Shown here: positions 6,343-32,615 of the stretch, piece by piece
How the letters are laid out: each line of letters starts with the position of its first letter
Numbering within the stretch: position 1 is the first letter of the stretch
Source: Methylocapsa aurea
Lineage (GTDB): Bacteria; Pseudomonadota; Alphaproteobacteria; Rhizobiales; Beijerinckiaceae
Assembly (NCBI RefSeq): GCF_000746085.1
Contig: NZ_JQKO01000012.1
Span: 62,001-126,000 of the forward strand
Length of the DNA: 64,000 nt
Reading direction: 5' to 3'
The notes under the pieces: model-generated
Database searches by the model: none
What the model was told of the DNA's origin: nothing
The model's input: the letters and a program-made list of their open reading frames with translations, nothing else
Made by a program: the position numbers and the translations under genes

Positions 6343-6956
6343 CCGAACAGGCTGCCTTCCGCGCGCAGATAGGCGAGGAGGGGCAGCAATGGCAACCCCA
6401 GGACCGTTGCGTGATCGCCCTCGATTTTTTCAAAGAGATGAATTCCGAGCCCCTCCAGCTGATAGGCGCCGACGCTCGCCAGGACCGAGTCGCCGGCCAA
6501 ACCAACGTAGGTCTCGATGAATTCTCGGGAAAGGCGGCGCATCGTCAGCCGCGCCGCGGGGGCCGCCTCGAACAGGATCCTATTGCCGCGAACGACGCAG
6601 ATCGCCGAATAAAGCTCATGCGTCCGGCCGGATAAAGCTTCGAGCTGCGCGGCGGCGCCAGCCCGATCCCTTGGTTTGGCGAAAACGCGGTCCTCAAGGC
6701 CAAGCGTCTGGTCCGCGCCAAGAACCAGACGACCGGGATTTGGCGCGCCAACCGCCAAAGCCTTGGCGCGGGCGAGACGACGAGCGATCTCCTCCGCGCC
6801 GGCGCCTTCGGCCAGCAACGGCGCTTCGACGCCCCGCTCATCGATCGCCGAGTCCCGAATCTCAAACGGAATGCCGGCGGCGGCGAGGAGGCCGCGCCGC
6901 GTTTGGCTTTTGGAAGCTAGAAGAAGGGGAGCCGCGCCGCGCCAGAGTTCGCTCAT
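6339..6956 (-). CDS. maf: Maf-type nucleotide pyrophosphatase
   Basis: Maf/HAM1-fold nucleoside triphosphate pyrophosphatase, thought to remove non-canonical nucleotides. The N-terminal LLLASKSQTRRGLL corresponds to the family LASxSPRRxxLL signature, and GADQTL carries the conserved aspartate. The start is placed at the ATG at 6956, overlapping the ppsR stop as TGATG; a GTG one codon earlier is also open. Length is 205 residues. The second gene of the origin-left operon, as in Caulobacter. Confidence 0.9.
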   Translation of the reverse strand: MSELWRGAAPLLLASKSQTRRGLLAAAGIPFEIRDSAIDERGVEAPLLAEGAGAEEIARRLARAKALAVGAPNPGRLVLGADQTLGLEDRVFAKPRDRAGAAAQLEALSGRTHELYSAICVVRGNRILFEAAPAARLTMRRLSREFIETYVGLAGDSVLASVGAYQLEGLGIHLFEKIEGDHATVLGLPLLPLLAYLRAEGSLFG

Positions 6957-7789
6957 CACGAGGAGATGAACTTCAGCCGGTGGATTTTGTAAAGATCGAT
7001 GATCGCCGCCGCGGTCTCCTCGATCGAGCGGCGCGTGACATCAATCGTCGGCCAGCCATGCTTGGCGAAAAGCTTGCGCGATTGCGCGACTTCATCGGCG
7101 ACTAAAAACCGATCGACATAGGGCGAGTCCTGACTGACCTTCAAGGACAGCAACCGGTTGGTGCGGACCTGGACGATGCATTCTGGCGAAGCCAGCAGTC
7201 CGACGATGAGCGGATTGCGCAGGGTTTCAACAGATTTCGGCAAAGGCACATTCGGGACGAGGGGAATATTCGCGGTCTTGATGCCCCGATTGGCGAGGTA
7301 GATGCTGGTCGGCGTCTTCGATGTCCGGCTGACGCCGATCAGCAGAACATCGGCGGATTCATAATTTTCCGATTGCTGTCCGTCGTCATGCATCAAGGTG
7401 AAGTTCAAAGCGTCGATGCGCCTGAAATAATCGGCGTTCAGCGAATGCTGCGCGCCCGCGCGCGGCGTCGCGGCGGTGCCGAGATAGGATTGGAAAAGGT
7501 TCAGGATCGGCTGCAGCACCGAAAGGCAAGGCGCGCCAATCTCCCGGCACGCCTCTTCGAGGCGACGGGCCAGCTCCAAATCGACAAGGGTAAAGAGCAC
7601 CATGCCTGGAGCGGCGGCGATCTCGGCGATCGCTTTATCGAGCAGCGCTTGCGTGCGCACCAGGGGATAGACATGCTCGAGCGAGGACACCCCCTGATAT
7701 TGCGCCGCGACCGCGCGGCTAACGGTGATCAAGGTCTCCCCCGTCGCGTCAGAAATCAGATGCAAATGGCAATAATGACGTCCCAACAA
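6956..7789 (-). CDS. ppsR: Pyruvate,phosphate dikinase regulatory protein (DUF299)
   Basis: Bifunctional kinase/pyrophosphorylase that switches pyruvate phosphate dikinase or PEP synthase off and on. The characteristic N terminus [13 protein letters not shown] and the P-loop-like GVSRTSKTP (residues 152-160) are present. The start is the difficult point: no ATG or GTG is available. The TTG at 7789, after a GGCGAGG, gives 277 residues, matching the family. A TTG at 7963 would add 58 residues without family similarity and would place DnaA-box-like sequence inside the gene. First gene of the leftward operon, transcribed away from the proposed oriC. Confidence 0.85.
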
Positions 7790-8189
7790 GGGCCTCGCCG
7801 GGCTTTCGCTGACTCGCGCATTGCTGAGGATAACAGTGGATAAGGATCCCGTCTCGCCGCGGGCCGCCGGAATTCTGCATTTTCCCAGCACGGCCCATGC
7901 GAAACCGTCCACAGGCGCGCATGATGAGAATTGGCTTAGACAGGACTCTGTGGATGCTGGCAATTTGTGCTCAATTAGTCGGAAAAATTTTCGAAAATAA
8001 TGCTATCCAATTGAAAATTATAAATAATTATTTCGTTTTTCCGCCATTAGAGCCAGCCTGTGAATCACGTGGATAAGCATAAGCGTTACAATCAACTTGT
8101 GGAAACGCGGGTACGAGTCTAATCCACCGCCTAATCTGAAGAAAAATAAGTCCTAGAATAGATTCATAAATTATTAGGGAATTTTCGCA
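7790..8189. other. Putative chromosomal replication origin (oriC)
   Basis: The gap between ppsR and hemE is the position of the origin in Caulobacter and many alphaproteobacteria. DnaA-box-like 9-mers (consensus TTATCCACA) occur as TTATCCACT (7835-7843, minus), GCATCCACA (7949-7957, minus), TTATCCACG (8068-8076, minus) and GTTTCCACA (8098-8106, minus). A strongly AT-rich stretch at 7979-8040 is a candidate unwinding element. Five GANTC sites (starts 7811, 7944, 8062, 8115, 8161) lie in the same 355 bases. Flanking genes point outward on both sides. The assignment is inference from order and motifs. Confidence 0.8.
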
Positions 8190-9251
8190 TTGGAAGGCCG
8201 AGCCCATCTCCAAGCCGATTTGCGGGCTAAGCCCTTCCTTCGCGTCTTGGAGGGAGAAACCCAAAATCCGCCTCCCATCTGGTTGATGCGGCAAGCGGGA
8301 CGCTATCTGCCCGAATATCGCGAGATCCGCGCCAAGGTCCCTTCCTTTCTCGAATTCTGCTATGCGCCGGCGCTTGCGGCGGAAGCGACCCTGCAGCCAA
8401 TTCGCCGTTTTGGCTTCGACGCCGCTATCCTGTTCAGTGACATCCTGGTGGTGCCCGATGCGCTCGGCCAGAAAGTCAGTTTTGAAACCAATGCAGGGCC
8501 CAGACTCGAGCCGATTCTGTCCGATCAGGATTTCGCCAAGCTGAACGATGCCCTCGATCTGGCGCGCCTTAGCCCGGTCTTCGAGACCATCGAGCGCGTC
8601 AAGGCCAGCCTGCCAGCCGAAACGGCGCTGATCGGCTTTTGCGGCGCGCCCTGGACCGTCGCCAGCTATATGATCGCCGGACGCGGCACGCCGGACCAGG
8701 CTCCGGCGCGGCTCTTTGCCTATCGTCAGCCGGACCTGTTCCAGCGCGTCATCGATAGGCTCGTCGCCGCCTCGATCGACTATCTTGCGCGCCAAATCGA
8801 CGCGGGCGTCGAAGCCGTGCAGATTTTCGATAGCTGGGCCGGAGTCCTCCCAGCCGCCGAGTTCGAACGATGGTGCCTTGCACCTGTCCAGGCGATCGTC
8901 GCCGGGCTAAGGCTGAAGCATGAAAATGCTCGGGTGATCGGCTTTCCCAAGGGCATAGGTCCCCGCCTTGAAGGATATGCAAGCCGAACCGGGGTCAACG
9001 CCCTTGGGCTCGACAGTTCGATCGATCCAGTCTGGGCCGCGCGGAGCTTTGGTAAAACGCTTGTTTTACAGGGGAATCTCGATCCCTTAGCTCTGGTCGC
9101 CGGGGGAGCCGCCCTGGATGAAGCCGTTAAAAGCATTCTTAGGGCTTTTAGGGATCGGCCGCATATTTTCAATCTTGGCCATGGCATCTTGCCAGAGACG
9201 CCAATCCGCAATGTCGAGCGTCTGCTCGATCTTGTCCGACGGGGATCTTAA
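8190..9251 (+). CDS. hemE: Uroporphyrinogen decarboxylase
   Basis: Converts uroporphyrinogen III to coproporphyrinogen III in haem synthesis. The signature LMRQAGRYLPEYR (R34, R38), the catalytic aspartate in LFSDILVV (D84) and the motif GFCGAPWTVASYM are all present, as is the C-terminal NLGHGILPETP. The start is TTG at 8190 with AGGGA about nine bases upstream; there is no ATG or GTG in the first 32 codons. Length is 353 residues. hemJ follows after 3 bases, forming a haem operon at the edge of oriC. Confidence 0.95.
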   Translation: MEGRAHLQADLRAKPFLRVLEGETQNPPPIWLMRQAGRYLPEYREIRAKVPSFLEFCYAPALAAEATLQPIRRFGFDAAILFSDILVVPDALGQKVSFETNAGPRLEPILSDQDFAKLNDALDLARLSPVFETIERVKASLPAETALIGFCGAPWTVASYMIAGRGTPDQAPARLFAYRQPDLFQRVIDRLVAASIDYLARQIDAGVEAVQIFDSWAGVLPAAEFERWCLAPVQAIVAGLRLKHENARVIGFPKGIGPRLEGYASRTGVNALGLDSSIDPVWAARSFGKTLVLQGNLDPLALVAGGAALDEAVKSILRAFRDRPHIFNLGHGILPETPIRNVERLLDLVRRGS

Positions 9252-11192: not shown

Positions 11193-11565
11193 GCCTCTAC
11201 AAGGCTTTTATTGCTTGGCTGGGGAGGTTGAGAGGCGGCGCGCGACTTGACCTTGCCTGCTTGTTGCGGCACCAAAGCCGCCGTGACGGTCTCTTGCCGA
11301 AGCGAAAGACGGTCCTATCTCGCGGCGGACGGCCCAAGATCTATGGCCAAGATTTTAGGATCTTAAGACGTGTGGCCCAGAGCGCGTCCCGATCGGATGG
11401 ACTTGAACCAGCGTCATCGCGTCTGCGTTCCAAGCTTCAATTCCCTAGAGCATTTTCGAGCGAAGTGGATGCCGGTTCGCGTTAAGAAAATGCAACAAAA
11501 CAAAGACCTAGAGCTGCTTTCTGATTCCGCCGAAACTGAATGCGCTCTAATGCGGGAAAACCTCG
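11193..11565. other. Gene-free spacer between rho and the TerC gene
   Basis: No convincing gene is seen. From 11377 there is a half copy of the GATCGGATGG palindrome family, followed by a short tRNA T-arm-like stretch on the minus strand (11396-11412) without the rest of a cloverleaf, and then a full 104-base family A repeat (11446-11549). Confidence 0.6.
11446..11549 (+). repeat. Dispersed hairpin repeat (family A), full 104-base copy
   Basis: Begins TAGAGC and ends GCTCTA. The first module is a hairpin: GCATTTTC 11450-11457 pairs with GAAAATGC 11486-11493, and GCGAA 11460-11464 pairs with TTCGC 11476-11480 around GTGGATGCCGG, with GTTAA as the bulge. The second module carries a weaker inverted repeat. 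It differs from the minus-strand copy at 63677-63780 at only 5 of 104 positions. Confidence 0.85.
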
Positions 11566-12423
11566 TTGATAAGTGATCTCGTCGCGCTGGCCGTCGATCC
11601 TGCGGCTTGGCTCGCCTTCGCCACCCTTGTCGTGATGGAGATCGTGCTCGGGGTCGACAACCTCGTTTTTGTCGCGATTCTCTCCAATAAACTGCCGTAT
11701 CCGCAAAATGCGCTGGCGCGCCGGATCGGCATTGGCCTTTCCCTTATTTTCCGCATTCTGCTCCTCGCGGCCGCTGGGTTTATCGTCAAGCTCACCCAGC
11801 CTGTGTTTGCTGTGCTTGAGTATCATTTTTCCTGGCGCGACCTGATTCTGATCGCCGGCGGGGTCTTTCTCGTTTGGAAGGCGACGACCGAGATCCATGA
11901 AAGTATGGATATCTCGGACAAGACGTCGGAGCACTTTAAGAAACCTTCGGGTTTTCGCTCCGTTGTCGCCCAGATCGTGCTCCTCGACATTGTGTTCTCC
12001 ATCGATTCGATCATCACCGCCGTCGGCATGACCGAGCATGTCCCGATCATGATCGTCTCGGTGATCGTCGCCGTCGTCGCAATGTTGCTCGCGGCTGATT
12101 CGCTCGCGAAATTCATTCATAAAAACCCGACGATTGTAATGCTGGCGCTGGGCTTTCTGCTGCTGATCGGCACGACGCTTATCGCGGATGGATTTGGCTT
12201 CCATTTCCCCAAGGGCTACATTTACGTGGCGATGGCGTTCTCCGGCGCGGTCGAAGGCTTGAACATGTTGGCGCGAAGCCGGCGGCAAGCAGCGGCCGCT
12301 TTGGTTCATCCGCCGGCGTCTGCGCTGCAGCCTCCGCCGGCTCCGCCCCAGCTGGCAGAATCGGCGACGCCGCCCAAGAAGCGGAGCGCGCGCAAACGTG
12401 GGCATAAAGGGCGACGACGCTAA
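11566..12423 (+). CDS. TerC-family integral membrane protein
   Basis: TerC/YjbE/Alx-type membrane protein, a family with members implicated in manganese export and in tellurite resistance. The family motif [15 protein letters not shown] is near residues 25-40 and its internal repeat [18 protein letters not shown] near 137-155; both carry the conserved acidic residues of the transport path. About seven membrane segments are followed by a proline/alanine-rich and then highly basic cytoplasmic tail ([15 protein letters not shown]). The start is TTG at 11566 after GGGAA; no ATG lies in frame nearby. The end overlaps the priA start by 26 bases. Substrate unknown here. Confidence 0.85.
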
Positions 12424-14701: not shown

Positions 14702-15157
14702 TTAGAGATTGTCGAATCTGCTTGCCCCTTCCGGCGGGGGCGGCATAAGCGCGCTGGTCGACTCGCCGGCGTCGACGGCTACCTTGATGGCGTCAAAGGT
14801 GAACGATGCCGCAAAAGTTGATCCAAAGTTGAGAAGGGCGGCCGGGCTTTTGTTTTTTGTGTTTAGCCTTACTGCGATCACTTTCCTTCCAGTGACCGAG
14901 GCGGTCTGAACTTCCCAATTGATCCAGTCATTATTGCCAGTGTCTTTGCCGATAATGCAAAGGAGATGTGTGCCTGACTTGATTTTCTCGGTCAACTCGC
15001 TCTTGACTTGCTTGGCCTCTGCGCTGTGAAACGCGACTTTTGGTATATCATCCTCGAAAACAAAATCGAATTCCTGGTTCTTATCCCAATCAAGCAGCAT
15101 GTTCATGGAATCCATGTCGCTCTTCTTGAAGCTGACGAATATACGCGTCTTTGCCAT
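14702..15157 (-). CDS. ThsB/TIR-like domain protein (DUF1863 type), orphan
   Basis: A 151-residue single-domain protein beginning MAKTRIFVSF, the first beta strand of TIR-like domains of the ThsB (PF08937) type. It continues through a KSGTHLLCIIG strand to WINWEV, where E82 matches the position of the catalytic or substrate-contacting glutamate in TIR folds. A hydrophilic tail with PPPPEG ends the protein. The ATG at 15157 has AGAGGAA nine bases upstream; the frame upstream of it has no TIR similarity. Known ThsB proteins make a cyclic ADP-ribose signal for ThsA in Thoeris anti-phage defence, but no ThsA-like gene is in the window. GC is visibly lower than in priA and parB on either side, suggesting acquisition. 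A solo TIR enzyme or toxin is the alternative. Confidence 0.65.
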   Translation of the reverse strand: MAKTRIFVSFKKSDMDSMNMLLDWDKNQEFDFVFEDDIPKVAFHSAEAKQVKSELTEKIKSGTHLLCIIGKDTGNNDWINWEVQTASVTGRKVIAVRLNTKNKSPAALLNFGSTFAASFTFDAIKVAVDAGESTSALMPPPPEGASRFDNL

Positions 15158-15610
15158 TGAACGAAATTCCTCTTGGATTGGCTTATTGCGCCGCCTGAAA
15201 CCTGATCGATCTGCTGCACCTATAAACGACAACGGGCGCGTTTGAAACCACCGGGGGCGCGATCCGGTGGAGGCTTGTCTTGAAAAGCGAGGCGAGATCT
15301 GGCTCCAACCGTACGACTGGTTTCCACTTTGCTCGAAAATGCTCGAGCTTGTCCGGGCGGGAGAGAGCACCTGGCTCCACTACGCGCGTCTCAATGAATC
15401 AGCAGCCTTATAGTCAATGGCGGCCGCAAACCTTGCACTATAAGTCAATCAATAACGCGCTCGCATCTTCCATTGATGCATAGCGTGAAATGGCTGGTCC
15501 GCCGCGATTGAGGTTATCCTACATAAAACGCGACTAACCCGGCGCAACGCGGTCATTTTATTTGGCCATTCTATCGCAGACTTGTGGCGTCTGCTTAATC
15601 GGTAAATAAT
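15158..15610. other. Gene-free spacer downstream of parB
   Basis: Lower in GC than its surroundings. Around 15305-15345 there is a decayed family A repeat (GACTGGTTTCCACTTTGCTC, then GAAAATGC). No complete gene, tRNA or integration site is recognised. Confidence 0.5.
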
Positions 15611-16516
15611 CTATCCATCGCCGCGCAACAATCGACAAAGCGAGTCGAGCTGCTCGAGGCTTTTATAGCGCACCCGAACTTCCCCGCTCTCGCCCTTGTG
15701 ATCTATGGTCACGGTCAGGCCCAGCGCCGTCATCAGGGCGCTTTCGAGAGCTTTTGTATCCGCGTCCTTCGTTTTGGCCGCGCGCTTCTGGCTTTCCTGC
15801 CCTTTCGGAGCCTCTTCTCTTTCAGCCTCCTCCTGAACGATCCTCTCGACATCTCTGACGCTCAGGCCCTGCGCGACGATTCGATCGGCGAGCGCGTCAG
15901 GGTCCTGGAGGGAGAGAAGCGCCCGCGCATGACCAGCGGATATCTGACCCTCGGCTAGCAGCCGCTTCGTCCGTTCGGGAAGTTTCAGCAGCCGCAACGT
16001 ATTGGCGACATGACTGCGGCTCTTGCCGATCGCTTTGGCGAGATCGGTTTGGGAATAGGAAAATTCCGCGCTCAAGCGGTCATAGCCTGCGGCTTCCTCC
16101 AGGGCGTTGAGATCGCTGCGCTGCACATTTTCGATGATCGCGAGTTCCAGCGCCTGCCGATCGTCCGCCTCGATGGCGATGATCGGAACTTCGTGCAATC
16201 CAGCGCGCTGCGCCGCGCGCCAGCGCCGCTCGCCGGCGATGATCTCATAGGCGTCGGCGAGGCCCGGCGCCGCGCGTGCGAGGATCGGCTGAAGAATGCC
16301 CTTTTCCTTGATTGAGGCGGCAAGATCCTCAAGCCCGGCATCGTCGAAGCTCTTGCGCGGATTATGCGGATTGGGCCGGAGGAACTCGATTGGGATTTTC
16401 TTCTGGCCGCGCAGCCGCACCGAGCCGGCGGAAGGCTCTTCGCTATCGCCGATCAAGGCGGCGAGGCCGCGCCCCAGCCGCGGCCGCGATTCATCCGGGA
16501 TTTTGGAAGCTTTCAT
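15611..16516 (-). CDS. parB: Chromosome partitioning protein ParB
   Basis: CTP-dependent DNA clamp that loads at parS and segregates the origin region. The N-terminal LGRGLAALIG is followed by the ParB/Srx domain with IIAGERRWRAAQ and IENVQRSDLN, the helix-turn-helix (SQTDLAKAIGKSRSHVANTL) and a C-terminal dimerisation segment. Length 301. Its start overlaps the parA stop (ATGA). parS sites lie at 17723-17738 and 19942-19957, in and just beyond the same gene cluster. Confidence 0.96.
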   Translation of the reverse strand: MKASKIPDESRPRLGRGLAALIGDSEEPSAGSVRLRGQKKIPIEFLRPNPHNPRKSFDDAGLEDLAASIKEKGILQPILARAAPGLADAYEIIAGERRWRAAQRAGLHEVPIIAIEADDRQALELAIIENVQRSDLNALEEAAGYDRLSAEFSYSQTDLAKAIGKSRSHVANTLRLLKLPERTKRLLAEGQISAGHARALLSLQDPDALADRIVAQGLSVRDVERIVQEEAEREEAPKGQESQKRAAKTKDADTKALESALMTALGLTVTIDHKGESGEVRVRYKSLEQLDSLCRLLRGDG

Positions 16517-17364
16517 AATTCGTTTCGCTCAAGATCGGCGTCGGCCGCTCGATAGCGCCGCTCGCGTTGAATGACCTCTGACGCCAGCTTCAGATAGGCC
16601 TGACTGCCGCTGCATTTCAGATCATAGAGAAGAACCGGCTTGCCATGCGAGGGCGCCTCGGACACGCGAACATTACGCGGGATGACGGTGTCGTAGACCT
16701 TATCGCCCATGAAGCTCCGGACATCGGCCACCACCTGGGCGGCGAGACTGTTGCGCGTGTCGAACATGGTGAGAACAATGCCATGGATCGTCAAGCTGGC
16801 GTTCAAGGTTTTCTTAACTTGATCCACAGTGCTGAGAAGCTGGGACAATCCTTCGAGCGCGAAGAATTCGCATTGCAGCGGCACGAGAACGGCGTGCGAG
16901 GCAGCCATCGCGTTCATCGTCAGAAGATTGAGGGAGGGCGGGCAATCGATAAGAACATACGAAAAACGCTCGGCCTCGGGATTGCTTTGCTGGACCTGTT
17001 CCAGCGCCTGCAATGCGCCTTTGAGGCAATAGGCGCGATCTTTCCGTCCGGCGATTTCGAGCTCGACGCCAAGGAGATCGAGCGTCGAAGGCGCCAGGGT
17101 GAGGCGCGGCACGGCGGTTGTTTGCAGGATGGCCTGCAAGGTTTCCTCGCCGATCAAGACATCATAAGTCGACAGGCGGCGGTTGCGGCGATCGATCCCG
17201 AGCCCGGTCGAGGCATTGCCTTGAGGATCGAGATCGACGATCAAGACTCTTTCGCCAATGGCGGCGAGCGCGGTGCCGAGGTTGATCGCGGTCGTGGTCT
17301 TGCCGACTCCTCCCTTTTGATTGGCGATCACGAGAACGCGCATCGGGGTGGAGGATTGCGCCAC
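16513..17364 (-). CDS. parA: Chromosome partitioning ATPase ParA
   Basis: Walker-type ATPase that forms the gradient used by ParB-parS. The deviant Walker A KGGVGKTT lies near the N terminus, DLDPQGN and the Walker B VLIDCPPSL follow. The start is set at GTG 17364 because GGAG lies six bases upstream; a TTG two codons earlier directly abuts that Shine-Dalgarno sequence and is unlikely. This gives 283 residues. It is downstream of rsmG and overlaps parB. Confidence 0.95.
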   Translation of the reverse strand: MAQSSTPMRVLVIANQKGGVGKTTTAINLGTALAAIGERVLIVDLDPQGNASTGLGIDRRNRRLSTYDVLIGEETLQAILQTTAVPRLTLAPSTLDLLGVELEIAGRKDRAYCLKGALQALEQVQQSNPEAERFSYVLIDCPPSLNLLTMNAMAASHAVLVPLQCEFFALEGLSQLLSTVDQVKKTLNASLTIHGIVLTMFDTRNSLAAQVVADVRSFMGDKVYDTVIPRNVRVSEAPSHGKPVLLYDLKCSGSQAYLKLASEVIQRERRYRAADADLERNEL

Positions 17365-17419
17365 GTTCAACTCCTCGAAGAGAGGTTGCTCCAGGCGGGC
17401 CTGGGGGATCTACCTAGTT

Positions 17420-18058
17420 TCATGAAGGCGTCGACACTGGATCTTCGCGTCGTCTGACAAGGACGAGGCGAGCCGACGGAGATGTCTGGCTCGCGATGGT
17501 CGTGAGAAGATATTTACGTGCCGCGCTCTCGTCGGTCAATTCCGCTTCGGCCTGTTGTCCCTTGGAAAAGACGCCGATCGCTCCTTTTTCAATGAATTTC
17601 CCGGCATAGCCGAGGAGGATCGGCAGGGGCGCGAGAGCGCGGGCGCTGACGGCGTCGATCGGTTCGTGGAAATCTGGCGTGATTTTTTCGATCCTGCCGC
17701 AATGGATCACGGCCTGCGCCCCTGTTTCACGTGAAACTTCGCGGAGAAAGGCGCATTTGCGCTGATCCGAATCGATCAGATGGATTCGCGCATCGGGCTC
17801 ATCGGCGTATCGGATCGCGGTCACGAGGCCGGGAAACCCCCCGCCGGAGCCGAGATCCAGCCAGCGGCGGGCCAAAGGCGCCGCATTGGAGACCTGGAGC
17901 GAATCGGCAAAATGCCGGGTCCAGAGATCGTCAAGGCTGCTGTTGCCCACGAGATTGATGATGGGCTGCCATTTCTTGAGAATCTCGGCATAAATCGACA
18001 GGCGCCGCAGACATTCAGGCGATAGATCCGCAAGGATCGGGTGCTCTCGGCCTTTCAA
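17420..18058 (-). CDS. rsmG: 16S rRNA (guanine-N7) methyltransferase RsmG
   Basis: Methylates G527 of 16S rRNA (E. coli numbering). The SAM-binding motif [14 protein letters not shown] is near residue 70, and [20 protein letters not shown] precedes it, as is typical of GidB. Length 212. The start is a TTG at 18058 overlapping the mnmG stop as TTGA; the Shine-Dalgarno sequence is weak, and coupling to mnmG is probably what drives translation. A parS site is embedded in the coding sequence around codons 107-112. Confidence 0.92.
17723..17738. promoter_or_regulatory. parS site inside rsmG
   Basis: TGTTTCACGTGAAACT matches the universal parS palindrome TGTTTCACGTGAAACA at 15 of 16 positions. It is embedded in the rsmG coding sequence, 359 bases upstream of the parA start. 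Confidence 0.85.
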
Positions 18059-19941: not shown

Positions 19942-19957
19942 TGTTTCACGTGAAACA
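19942..19957. promoter_or_regulatory. parS site upstream of mnmG
   Basis: TGTTTCACGTGAAACA, a perfect 16-base match to the parS palindrome, in the mnmE-mnmG intergenic space about 11.8 kb from the proposed oriC. Confidence 0.93.
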
Positions 19958-32267: not shown

Positions 32268-32615
32268 AGCGTCCTCCTCCATTTAAGGGCGACGTCCGCC
32301 GCAATAAACAATAGCGCGCGATCAAAATCATTAGGATAAAATTTAATTGTATATAACTATATTGTGTACTGCCTTGCGTCCTGTTCGGATAATGCGGCAG
32401 ACCTCCAGCGCAAGAGCTACTCGCCTCAGCCGCCAGGTCAAGGCGCATCGCTGTCATCCGAGCGTCACGGCGCGGCGCCTCTGTGCTTGTGCGCGTCCGC
32501 CAACGCGCCTCGCCCGAGCATGGTCCTAGAACATGCTCCACCTCACTGAACCGGAGCGCTTCCTTTTCGATCAGATGAATCCATCAGATCGGGAAGCGCT
32601 TTAGCGGAGCTTGTT
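32268..32615. other. Spacer with family B palindrome
   Basis: AT-rich near 32325-32370 and probably carrying promoters for the flanking divergent genes. TAGAACATGCTCC near 32527 is a repeat fragment. 32553-32604 is a family B palindrome with arms TCGATCAGATG and CATCAGATCGGGA. No gene is seen. Confidence 0.5.

Follow-up and report, generated by a model that had tools for sequence, protein, structure and literature searches.

The ppsR-hemE locus

The window analysed here is a 64-kb stretch of DNA (positions 62001-126000 of contig C10) from a draft genome of 3.97 Mb in 34 contigs. The element under study is the gap at 7790-8189 between the divergent genes ppsR (COG1806) and hemE, which, judging from its sequence, is almost certainly the chromosomal origin of replication (oriC), as an initial annotation of this DNA had proposed. 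The best named match of hemE is from Methylocella tundrae (76%, among the matches listed, from which very close records are possibly missing), and the source is therefore taken as a Methylocella-group alphaproteobacterium. Both boundary genes are transcribed outward from the gap, which is intergenic. To its left lie ppsR, a Maf-like gene, aroE, coaE and dnaQ, and to its right hemE, a UPF0093 gene that we take to be hemJ, rho, priA, parB, a ParA-type ATPase gene, rsmG, mnmG and mnmE. Curated cut-offs of the profiles were exceeded for ppsR, aroE, coaE, dnaQ, hemE, rho, mnmG and parB; the profile matches of the Maf-like gene were below such cut-offs, and the ParA-type ATPase has Pfam support only. 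The likeness to the origin order of Caulobacter claimed at the outset holds for the genes, but it does not extend to the CtrA sites nor, apparently, to the IHF site.

The left boundary of the gap depends on the start of ppsR, whose frame stays open as far as a TTG at 7963. That start would cover the DnaA boxes at 7825, 7835 and 7949 (three boxes, and not one as first described). The probable start is the TTG at 7787-7789: the protein read from there is matched by the family profile from residue 5 onward, which makes the long start unlikely. Alignment of the full ppsR frame to relatives gave no start, the alignments beginning at scattered residues.

For comparison, 157 loci were read, 127 of which have a divergent ppsR-hemE gap; 119 of these gaps are non-redundant (90 non-sphingomonad and 29 sphingomonad). 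In the other 30 loci, the part that was read shows no divergent ppsR next to hemE; they include all Methylocystis, Methylosinus and Roseiarcus records fetched (L019, L021, L023, L038, L041, L043-L048, L050 and L051 are among them). For L025, L040, L049, L059 and L217 the upstream stretch was too short to judge, and in the remaining such loci the origin synteny seems broken.

DnaA boxes, strand composition and parS

We scored DnaA boxes by their mismatches, out of nine, to the consensus TTATCCACA and found a cluster beyond chance in the gap (Table 1). Three boxes have at most one mismatch and seven at most two, whereas gaps from a first-order simulation average 0.08 and 1.1, and none of 3000 simulations reached either of the observed numbers. 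The enrichment is shared by relatives, with 104 boxes at no more than one mismatch in the 90 non-sphingomonad gaps (8.2 when shuffled). Boxes are also more densely clustered here than anywhere else in the window or in eight further stretches read from the same genome. Around dnaA, a 20-kb region has no box at one mismatch or fewer and at most three per 400 bases at two mismatches. The exact consensus occurs nine times in the genome, unclustered and never within 7790-8189, so the origin would use slightly weak boxes, as the Caulobacter crescentus origin (Cori) does. The initial annotation had listed four near-consensus boxes, two of them matching 8 of 9 positions and all in one orientation. The boxes are indeed at those places, but three reach 8 of 9 (7825, 7835 and 8068); these three share the minus strand, while only six of the seven do once the 7-of-9 boxes are counted.

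Conservation of all box positions was considered and not upheld, since retention among the 14 congeners ranges from 12 down to 0. In 19 further relatives, the box at 7835 is kept in 10, that at 8098 in 7, and the remaining positions in 1 to 3. On these counts the array is anchored by the box at 7835 and variable elsewhere, and the 9-mer at 8120 is perhaps not a box, as no congener keeps it.

The strand composition of relatives switches near the same locus. G010 is a closed congener of 3.33 Mb with hemE at 2.017 Mb. All 10 stretches sampled there at 0.33-1.83 Mb have negative GC skew, and all seven at 2.035-3.1 Mb have positive skew; the octamer GGGCAGGG occurs 0 times forward and 11 times reverse in the first set, and 10 and 0 times in the second. 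Both stretches at 0-185 kb are positive, which places a second switch within 185-330 kb, close to the antipode (about 354 kb). In a second closed congener, G008 (hemE at 558 kb of 5.24 Mb), the sign flips between 530-550 kb and 565-585 kb, and the sign is as expected in 15 of 20 stretches. Our own contig agrees, though weakly. To this contig we applied a skew score from a hexamer model trained on G010 and G008; its cumulative minimum falls at 74 kb (2-kb grid) and the gap at 70 kb, about 4 kb apart. The skew-minimum test named in the initial annotation, run on this contig, therefore did not refute the origin.

In the same genome, the polarity of GGGCAGGG reverses on contig C1 near 330-338 kb, among the matches listed. 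This reversal is probably the replication terminus.

The partition genes and their sites lie close by, as the initial annotation had anticipated for parABS. The exact 14-base parS core occurs twice in the genome, both times within the parS sites at 17723 and 19942, which are 10-12 kb from the gap; one further copy, with one mismatch, is on contig C2.

Some observations weigh against an origin at this place. The stretch of G010 at 1.98-2.00 Mb, 17-37 kb from hemE on the side expected to be negative, is slightly positive (+0.006), and 5 of the 20 stretches of G008 have the unexpected sign. GC skew on our own contig is weak (-0.011 to the left and +0.009 to the right), and the hexamer model transfers only moderately, being correct on 12 of 16 test stretches in one case and on 11 of 16 in the other. 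Of the seven box positions, four are found at two mismatches or fewer in only 6 or 7 of the 14 congeners, and that at 8120 in none. The skew switches of the congeners, the box cluster, the main boxes kept in relatives and the position of parABS nevertheless support the proposed origin, and by gene order and boxes the gap is, as far as its sequence goes, an ordinary member of the hemE-ppsR origins.

Table 1. Coordinates of the putative origin, its predicted elements and the nearby partition genes and sites in the window
Feature	Position	Strand	Support or remarks
ppsR (COG1806 / DUF299), left boundary gene	6956..7789	-	NCBIfam PRK05339, 327 bits, above cut-off
Putative chromosomal origin (oriC), ppsR-hemE gap	7790..8189	.	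Boxes, skew, alignment with relatives
DnaA box TTATCCTCA (8 of 9)	7825..7833	-	At most 2 mismatches in 7/14 congeners; ten bases from the box at 7835
DnaA box TTATCCACT (8 of 9), best kept	7835..7843	-	At most 2 mismatches in 12/14 congeners and 10/19 other relatives
Conserved block TCCACAGGC (consensus TCAACAGGC)	7908..7916	.	Mean column conservation 0.80 (0.49 overall)
Weak DnaA box GCATCCACA (7 of 9)	7949..7957	-	At most 2 mismatches in 6/14 congeners; TGTGRA core in most
AT-rich block; place of the CtrA-type full site of relatives, apparently decayed here	7979..8040	.	Composition, stability, alignment
Columns aligned to the CtrA-type site of the family; here AATTATAAA and TTATTTCGT	8016..8036	.	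Alignment with relatives
Weak DnaA box TGATTCACA (7 of 9)	8059..8067	-	At most 2 mismatches in 6/14 congeners
DnaA box TTATCCACG (8 of 9)	8068..8076	-	At most 2 mismatches in 9/14 congeners and 2/19 other relatives
Weak DnaA box GTTTCCACA (7 of 9)	8098..8106	-	At most 2 mismatches in 7/14 congeners; TTGTG core widely kept
9-mer TAATCCACC (7 of 9), in conserved CTAATCC block	8120..8128	+	Box in 0/14 congeners
Probable conserved DNA unwinding element adjoining hemE, GANTC at 8161	8138..8177	.	Stability and conservation in relatives
hemE, right boundary gene	8190..9251	+	TIGR01464, 398 bits
parB	15611..16516	-	PF02195, PF17762, PF23552
parA	16513..17370	-	PF13614, 194 bits; named from its position beside parB
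parS, one mismatch to the 16-base consensus, within rsmG	17723..17738	+	Consensus match
parS, exact match to the 16-base consensus, between mnmG and mnmE	19942..19957	+	Consensus match

Two further open frames were seen between the gap and parB. A gene with a ThsB-type TIR domain (PF08937, 51 bits; a domain named for Thoeris defence) lies at 14702-15370 on the minus strand, between priA and parB and thus within the origin-par core, and a 307-residue open frame without a Pfam match at 1e-8 adjoins priA (11482-12405, minus strand). No match was found in an Rfam scan of the 64-kb window at gathering score, nor any tRNA in a scan of the window.

The probable unwinding element and the CtrA-type site

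The anatomy of the gap was examined in an alignment of our own sequence with those of 33 relatives (34 gaps hand-chosen among 87, sphingomonads left out). The twelve best-conserved 9-base blocks are at 7825, 7835, 7908, 7948, 8016, 8028, 8095, 8119, 8129, 8138, 8159 and 8170, with mean column conservation of 0.62-0.80 compared with 0.49 overall. The rightmost of them are AT-rich and abut hemE, and the block at 7908 is possibly a weak DnaA contact.

The initial annotation had pointed to an AT-rich block at 7979-8040. Its AT-richness is not in doubt: the window reaches its highest AT content, 82%, in the 60-base segment at 7981 (10-base grid), and by nearest-neighbour stability the 40-mer at 7994-8033 is the second least stable of the window. 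The least stable one, at 32324-32363, is distant from the origin. However, the block is probably not the ancestral unwinding element, since in 75 of 83 gaps the least stable 40-mer has its centre 20-90 bases upstream of hemE, and only in four, the window among them, does it lie more than 110 bases from that gene. GANTC sites occur in the last 110 bases before hemE in 82 of the 90 non-sphingomonad gaps, compared with 40 when shuffled, and our gap has five of these CcrM-type sites (7811, 7944, 8062, 8115 and 8161), the average in the window being about one per 400 bases. The AT-rich stretch beside hemE, at 8138-8177, is thus probably the better candidate for the unwinding element. That the block serves as the main unwinding element, with the hemE-side stretch being just the hemE promoter, is unlikely. 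That view has in its favour that, in this species, the block 40-mer (-39.7) is the least stable of the gap, by a small margin over the one beside hemE (-41.0), so the block may take part in melting; it is opposed by the position of the least stable 40-mer in relatives and by the alignment of the block columns with those of a CtrA-type site.

This site is the direct repeat TTAA-N7-TTAA (columns AATcGTTAA and ATcGTTAAC in relatives), which is the CtrA consensus printed in the available sections of PMC1914354. Of the 90 non-sphingomonad gaps, 47 contain it (200 shuffled runs gave a mean of 1.04 and at most 4), and none of the 29 sphingomonad gaps does. Among spacings from 0 to 20, the commonest after 7 are 14 (14 gaps), 3 (12) and 17 (10). 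In 40 of the 90 gaps it lies 125-260 bases from hemE, namely in 20 of 40 gaps from the same family, 4 of 24 from other families of the order and, for the rest, in named records. These counts come from related genomes, which are not independent, and therefore overstate the number of events.

In our gap there is no TTAA anywhere between 7790 and 8189, and hence no CtrA full site. The orthologous region has a perfect site in seven of the 14 congeners, one mismatch in two and none (two or more mismatches) in five, and the best match in our own orthologous region has mismatches at three of eight positions. On a tree of hemE and ppsR with 34 rows, the state of the site requires six changes, and the window pairs with G011, which also lacks the site, with modest support (83/86). 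CtrA itself was matched in all 16 genomes searched (two copies are cut by contig ends). Our CtrA is 83% identical to that of Caulobacter, and few residues differ in the DNA-binding half among 14 full-length copies, making it nearly invariant. GcrA (PF07750, 156 bits) is encoded as well, together with one N6_N4 methylase, presumably CcrM-type from its DPPYNLQL motif. No strict IHF site was found in the gap, and one loose match at 8063 overlaps DnaA boxes. We consider it likely that a single CtrA full site lay between the box clusters in the ancestral origin of the group, and that it was lost here by changes that yielded the AT-rich block.

Several results temper this reconstruction. A gap free of TTAA arises in 5.6% of simulations, and 10 of the 90 gaps have none. 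With the site absent or degraded in 5 of 14 congeners, its loss is not peculiar to this species, and half of the gaps from the same family are without it. At all 16 ctrA loci, our own included, the 350 bases upstream of the gene lack the strict motif, so that an expected CtrA target is not marked by it; this speaks against reading the origin motif as a CtrA site. Neither is TTAAC-N6-TTAA enriched genome-wide: in 12 of 13 genomes its backward control is the commoner of the two, and in one both are equally frequent. The argument for a CtrA site therefore relies on position and spacing within the origin.

Two alternatives were weighed. CtrA could still bind our gap through a degenerate site and retain its control, given that a published scan accepts TTWW-N7-TTWW (PMC1914354, in the sections available) and that one such match exists at 8171-8185. 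We find this doubtful, because the gap lacks even a TTAA half site, the orthologous region is at best three mismatches away, and the match at 8171 sits elsewhere, beside hemE. Slightly less probable still is that the TTAA-N7-TTAA of the family is some conserved element other than a CtrA site. The results upstream of ctrA and genome-wide favour this, but the specificity of the spacing (47 gaps, against no more than 14 for any of the 20 other spacings) and its identity to the published CtrA consensus (PMC1914354) argue for CtrA.

Taken as a whole, the gap is very likely an origin, in which the box array would drive melting and from which a CtrA site has likely been lost. DnaA would bind the array that runs from 7825 to 8106, whose boxes are slightly weak and mostly in one orientation and whose anchor is the box at 7835, and this array would melt the GANTC-bearing AT-rich stretch beside hemE (approximately 8131-8178), where the helicase would load. 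The origin would fire bidirectionally, and ParB bound to parS, 10-12 kb to the right, would segregate the new origins. The ancestral full site would let phosphorylated CtrA exclude DnaA; with this site lost, CtrA could control replication here only indirectly, if at all. That the gap is a mere divergent promoter region for ppsR and hemE, which do both diverge from it, with boxes regulating transcription and replication starting at another place, such as near dnaA, is very improbable in view of the skew switches in two closed congeners, the proximity of both exact parS cores, the density of the box cluster and the absence of boxes with one mismatch or fewer around dnaA.

Comparison with known origins

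The new part of these results is the predicted CtrA-type site at the origins of this family and its apparent loss here. The titles and opening lines of abstracts listed in searches of open-licence papers report no conserved single CtrA-type origin site for this family. A 2015 review states, in its available sections, that CtrA sites were unseen in origins beyond the caulobacters, Rickettsia prowazekii possibly excepted (PMC4468827). However, motif scans gave from zero to seven CtrA sites in the origins of Wolbachia and its kin (PMC1914354), and CtrA binds next to the origin of Hyphomonas neptunium, so the statement of the review appears broader than the available parts of the other papers allow.

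The missing site, set against relatives that keep it, would make this origin a variant worth testing. It is possible, but we hold it improbable, that the origins of the Methylocella-Microvirga-Chelatococcus branch were gated by a single CtrA full site between box clusters, and that several lineages, this one included, released the gate with CtrA nearly unchanged, the site becoming here a second easily melted block that eases initiation. If this were true, single-site gating by CtrA would fall outside the lineages for which the available sources describe CtrA sites at the origin. Direct action of CtrA at the origin separates Caulobacter from the rhizobia studied, and near relatives that differ by one perfectly spaced site, with CtrA almost unchanged, would be a natural experiment on origin-bound CtrA. 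The comparison also corrects which AT-rich stretch has the first claim as unwinding element.

Among known systems, Cori of C. crescentus is similar in its place between COG1806 (ppsR) and hemE, its sub-consensus DnaA boxes and its AT-rich stretch (PMC1914354, PMC4468827). Unlike our gap, which has no CtrA full site, TTAA half site or strict IHF match, Cori is described with five CtrA sites and an IHF site (PMC1914354). Sinorhizobium meliloti, Brucella abortus and Ehrlichia ruminantium resemble our case in that CtrA is present and the available sections report no CtrA motif or binding at the origin (PMC4433202, PMC2877005, PMC1914354), the origins of S. meliloti and B. abortus being reported there as unbound by CtrA (PMC4433202, PMC2877005). 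These are, however, other lineages, whereas in our window the absence is visible against near relatives that keep the site. In H. neptunium, binding of CtrA next to the origin was measured by chromatin immunoprecipitation sequencing (PMC7200025), as we propose for the congeners that keep the site; this bacterium belongs to another lineage, the Caulobacterales (PMC8116508), and in the congeners the binding is predicted from sequence. The closest counterparts are the origins of the 14 Methylocella-group congeners, which share the gene pair and the conserved blocks in the same order but of which seven have a perfect CtrA-type full site where our window has the AT-rich block.
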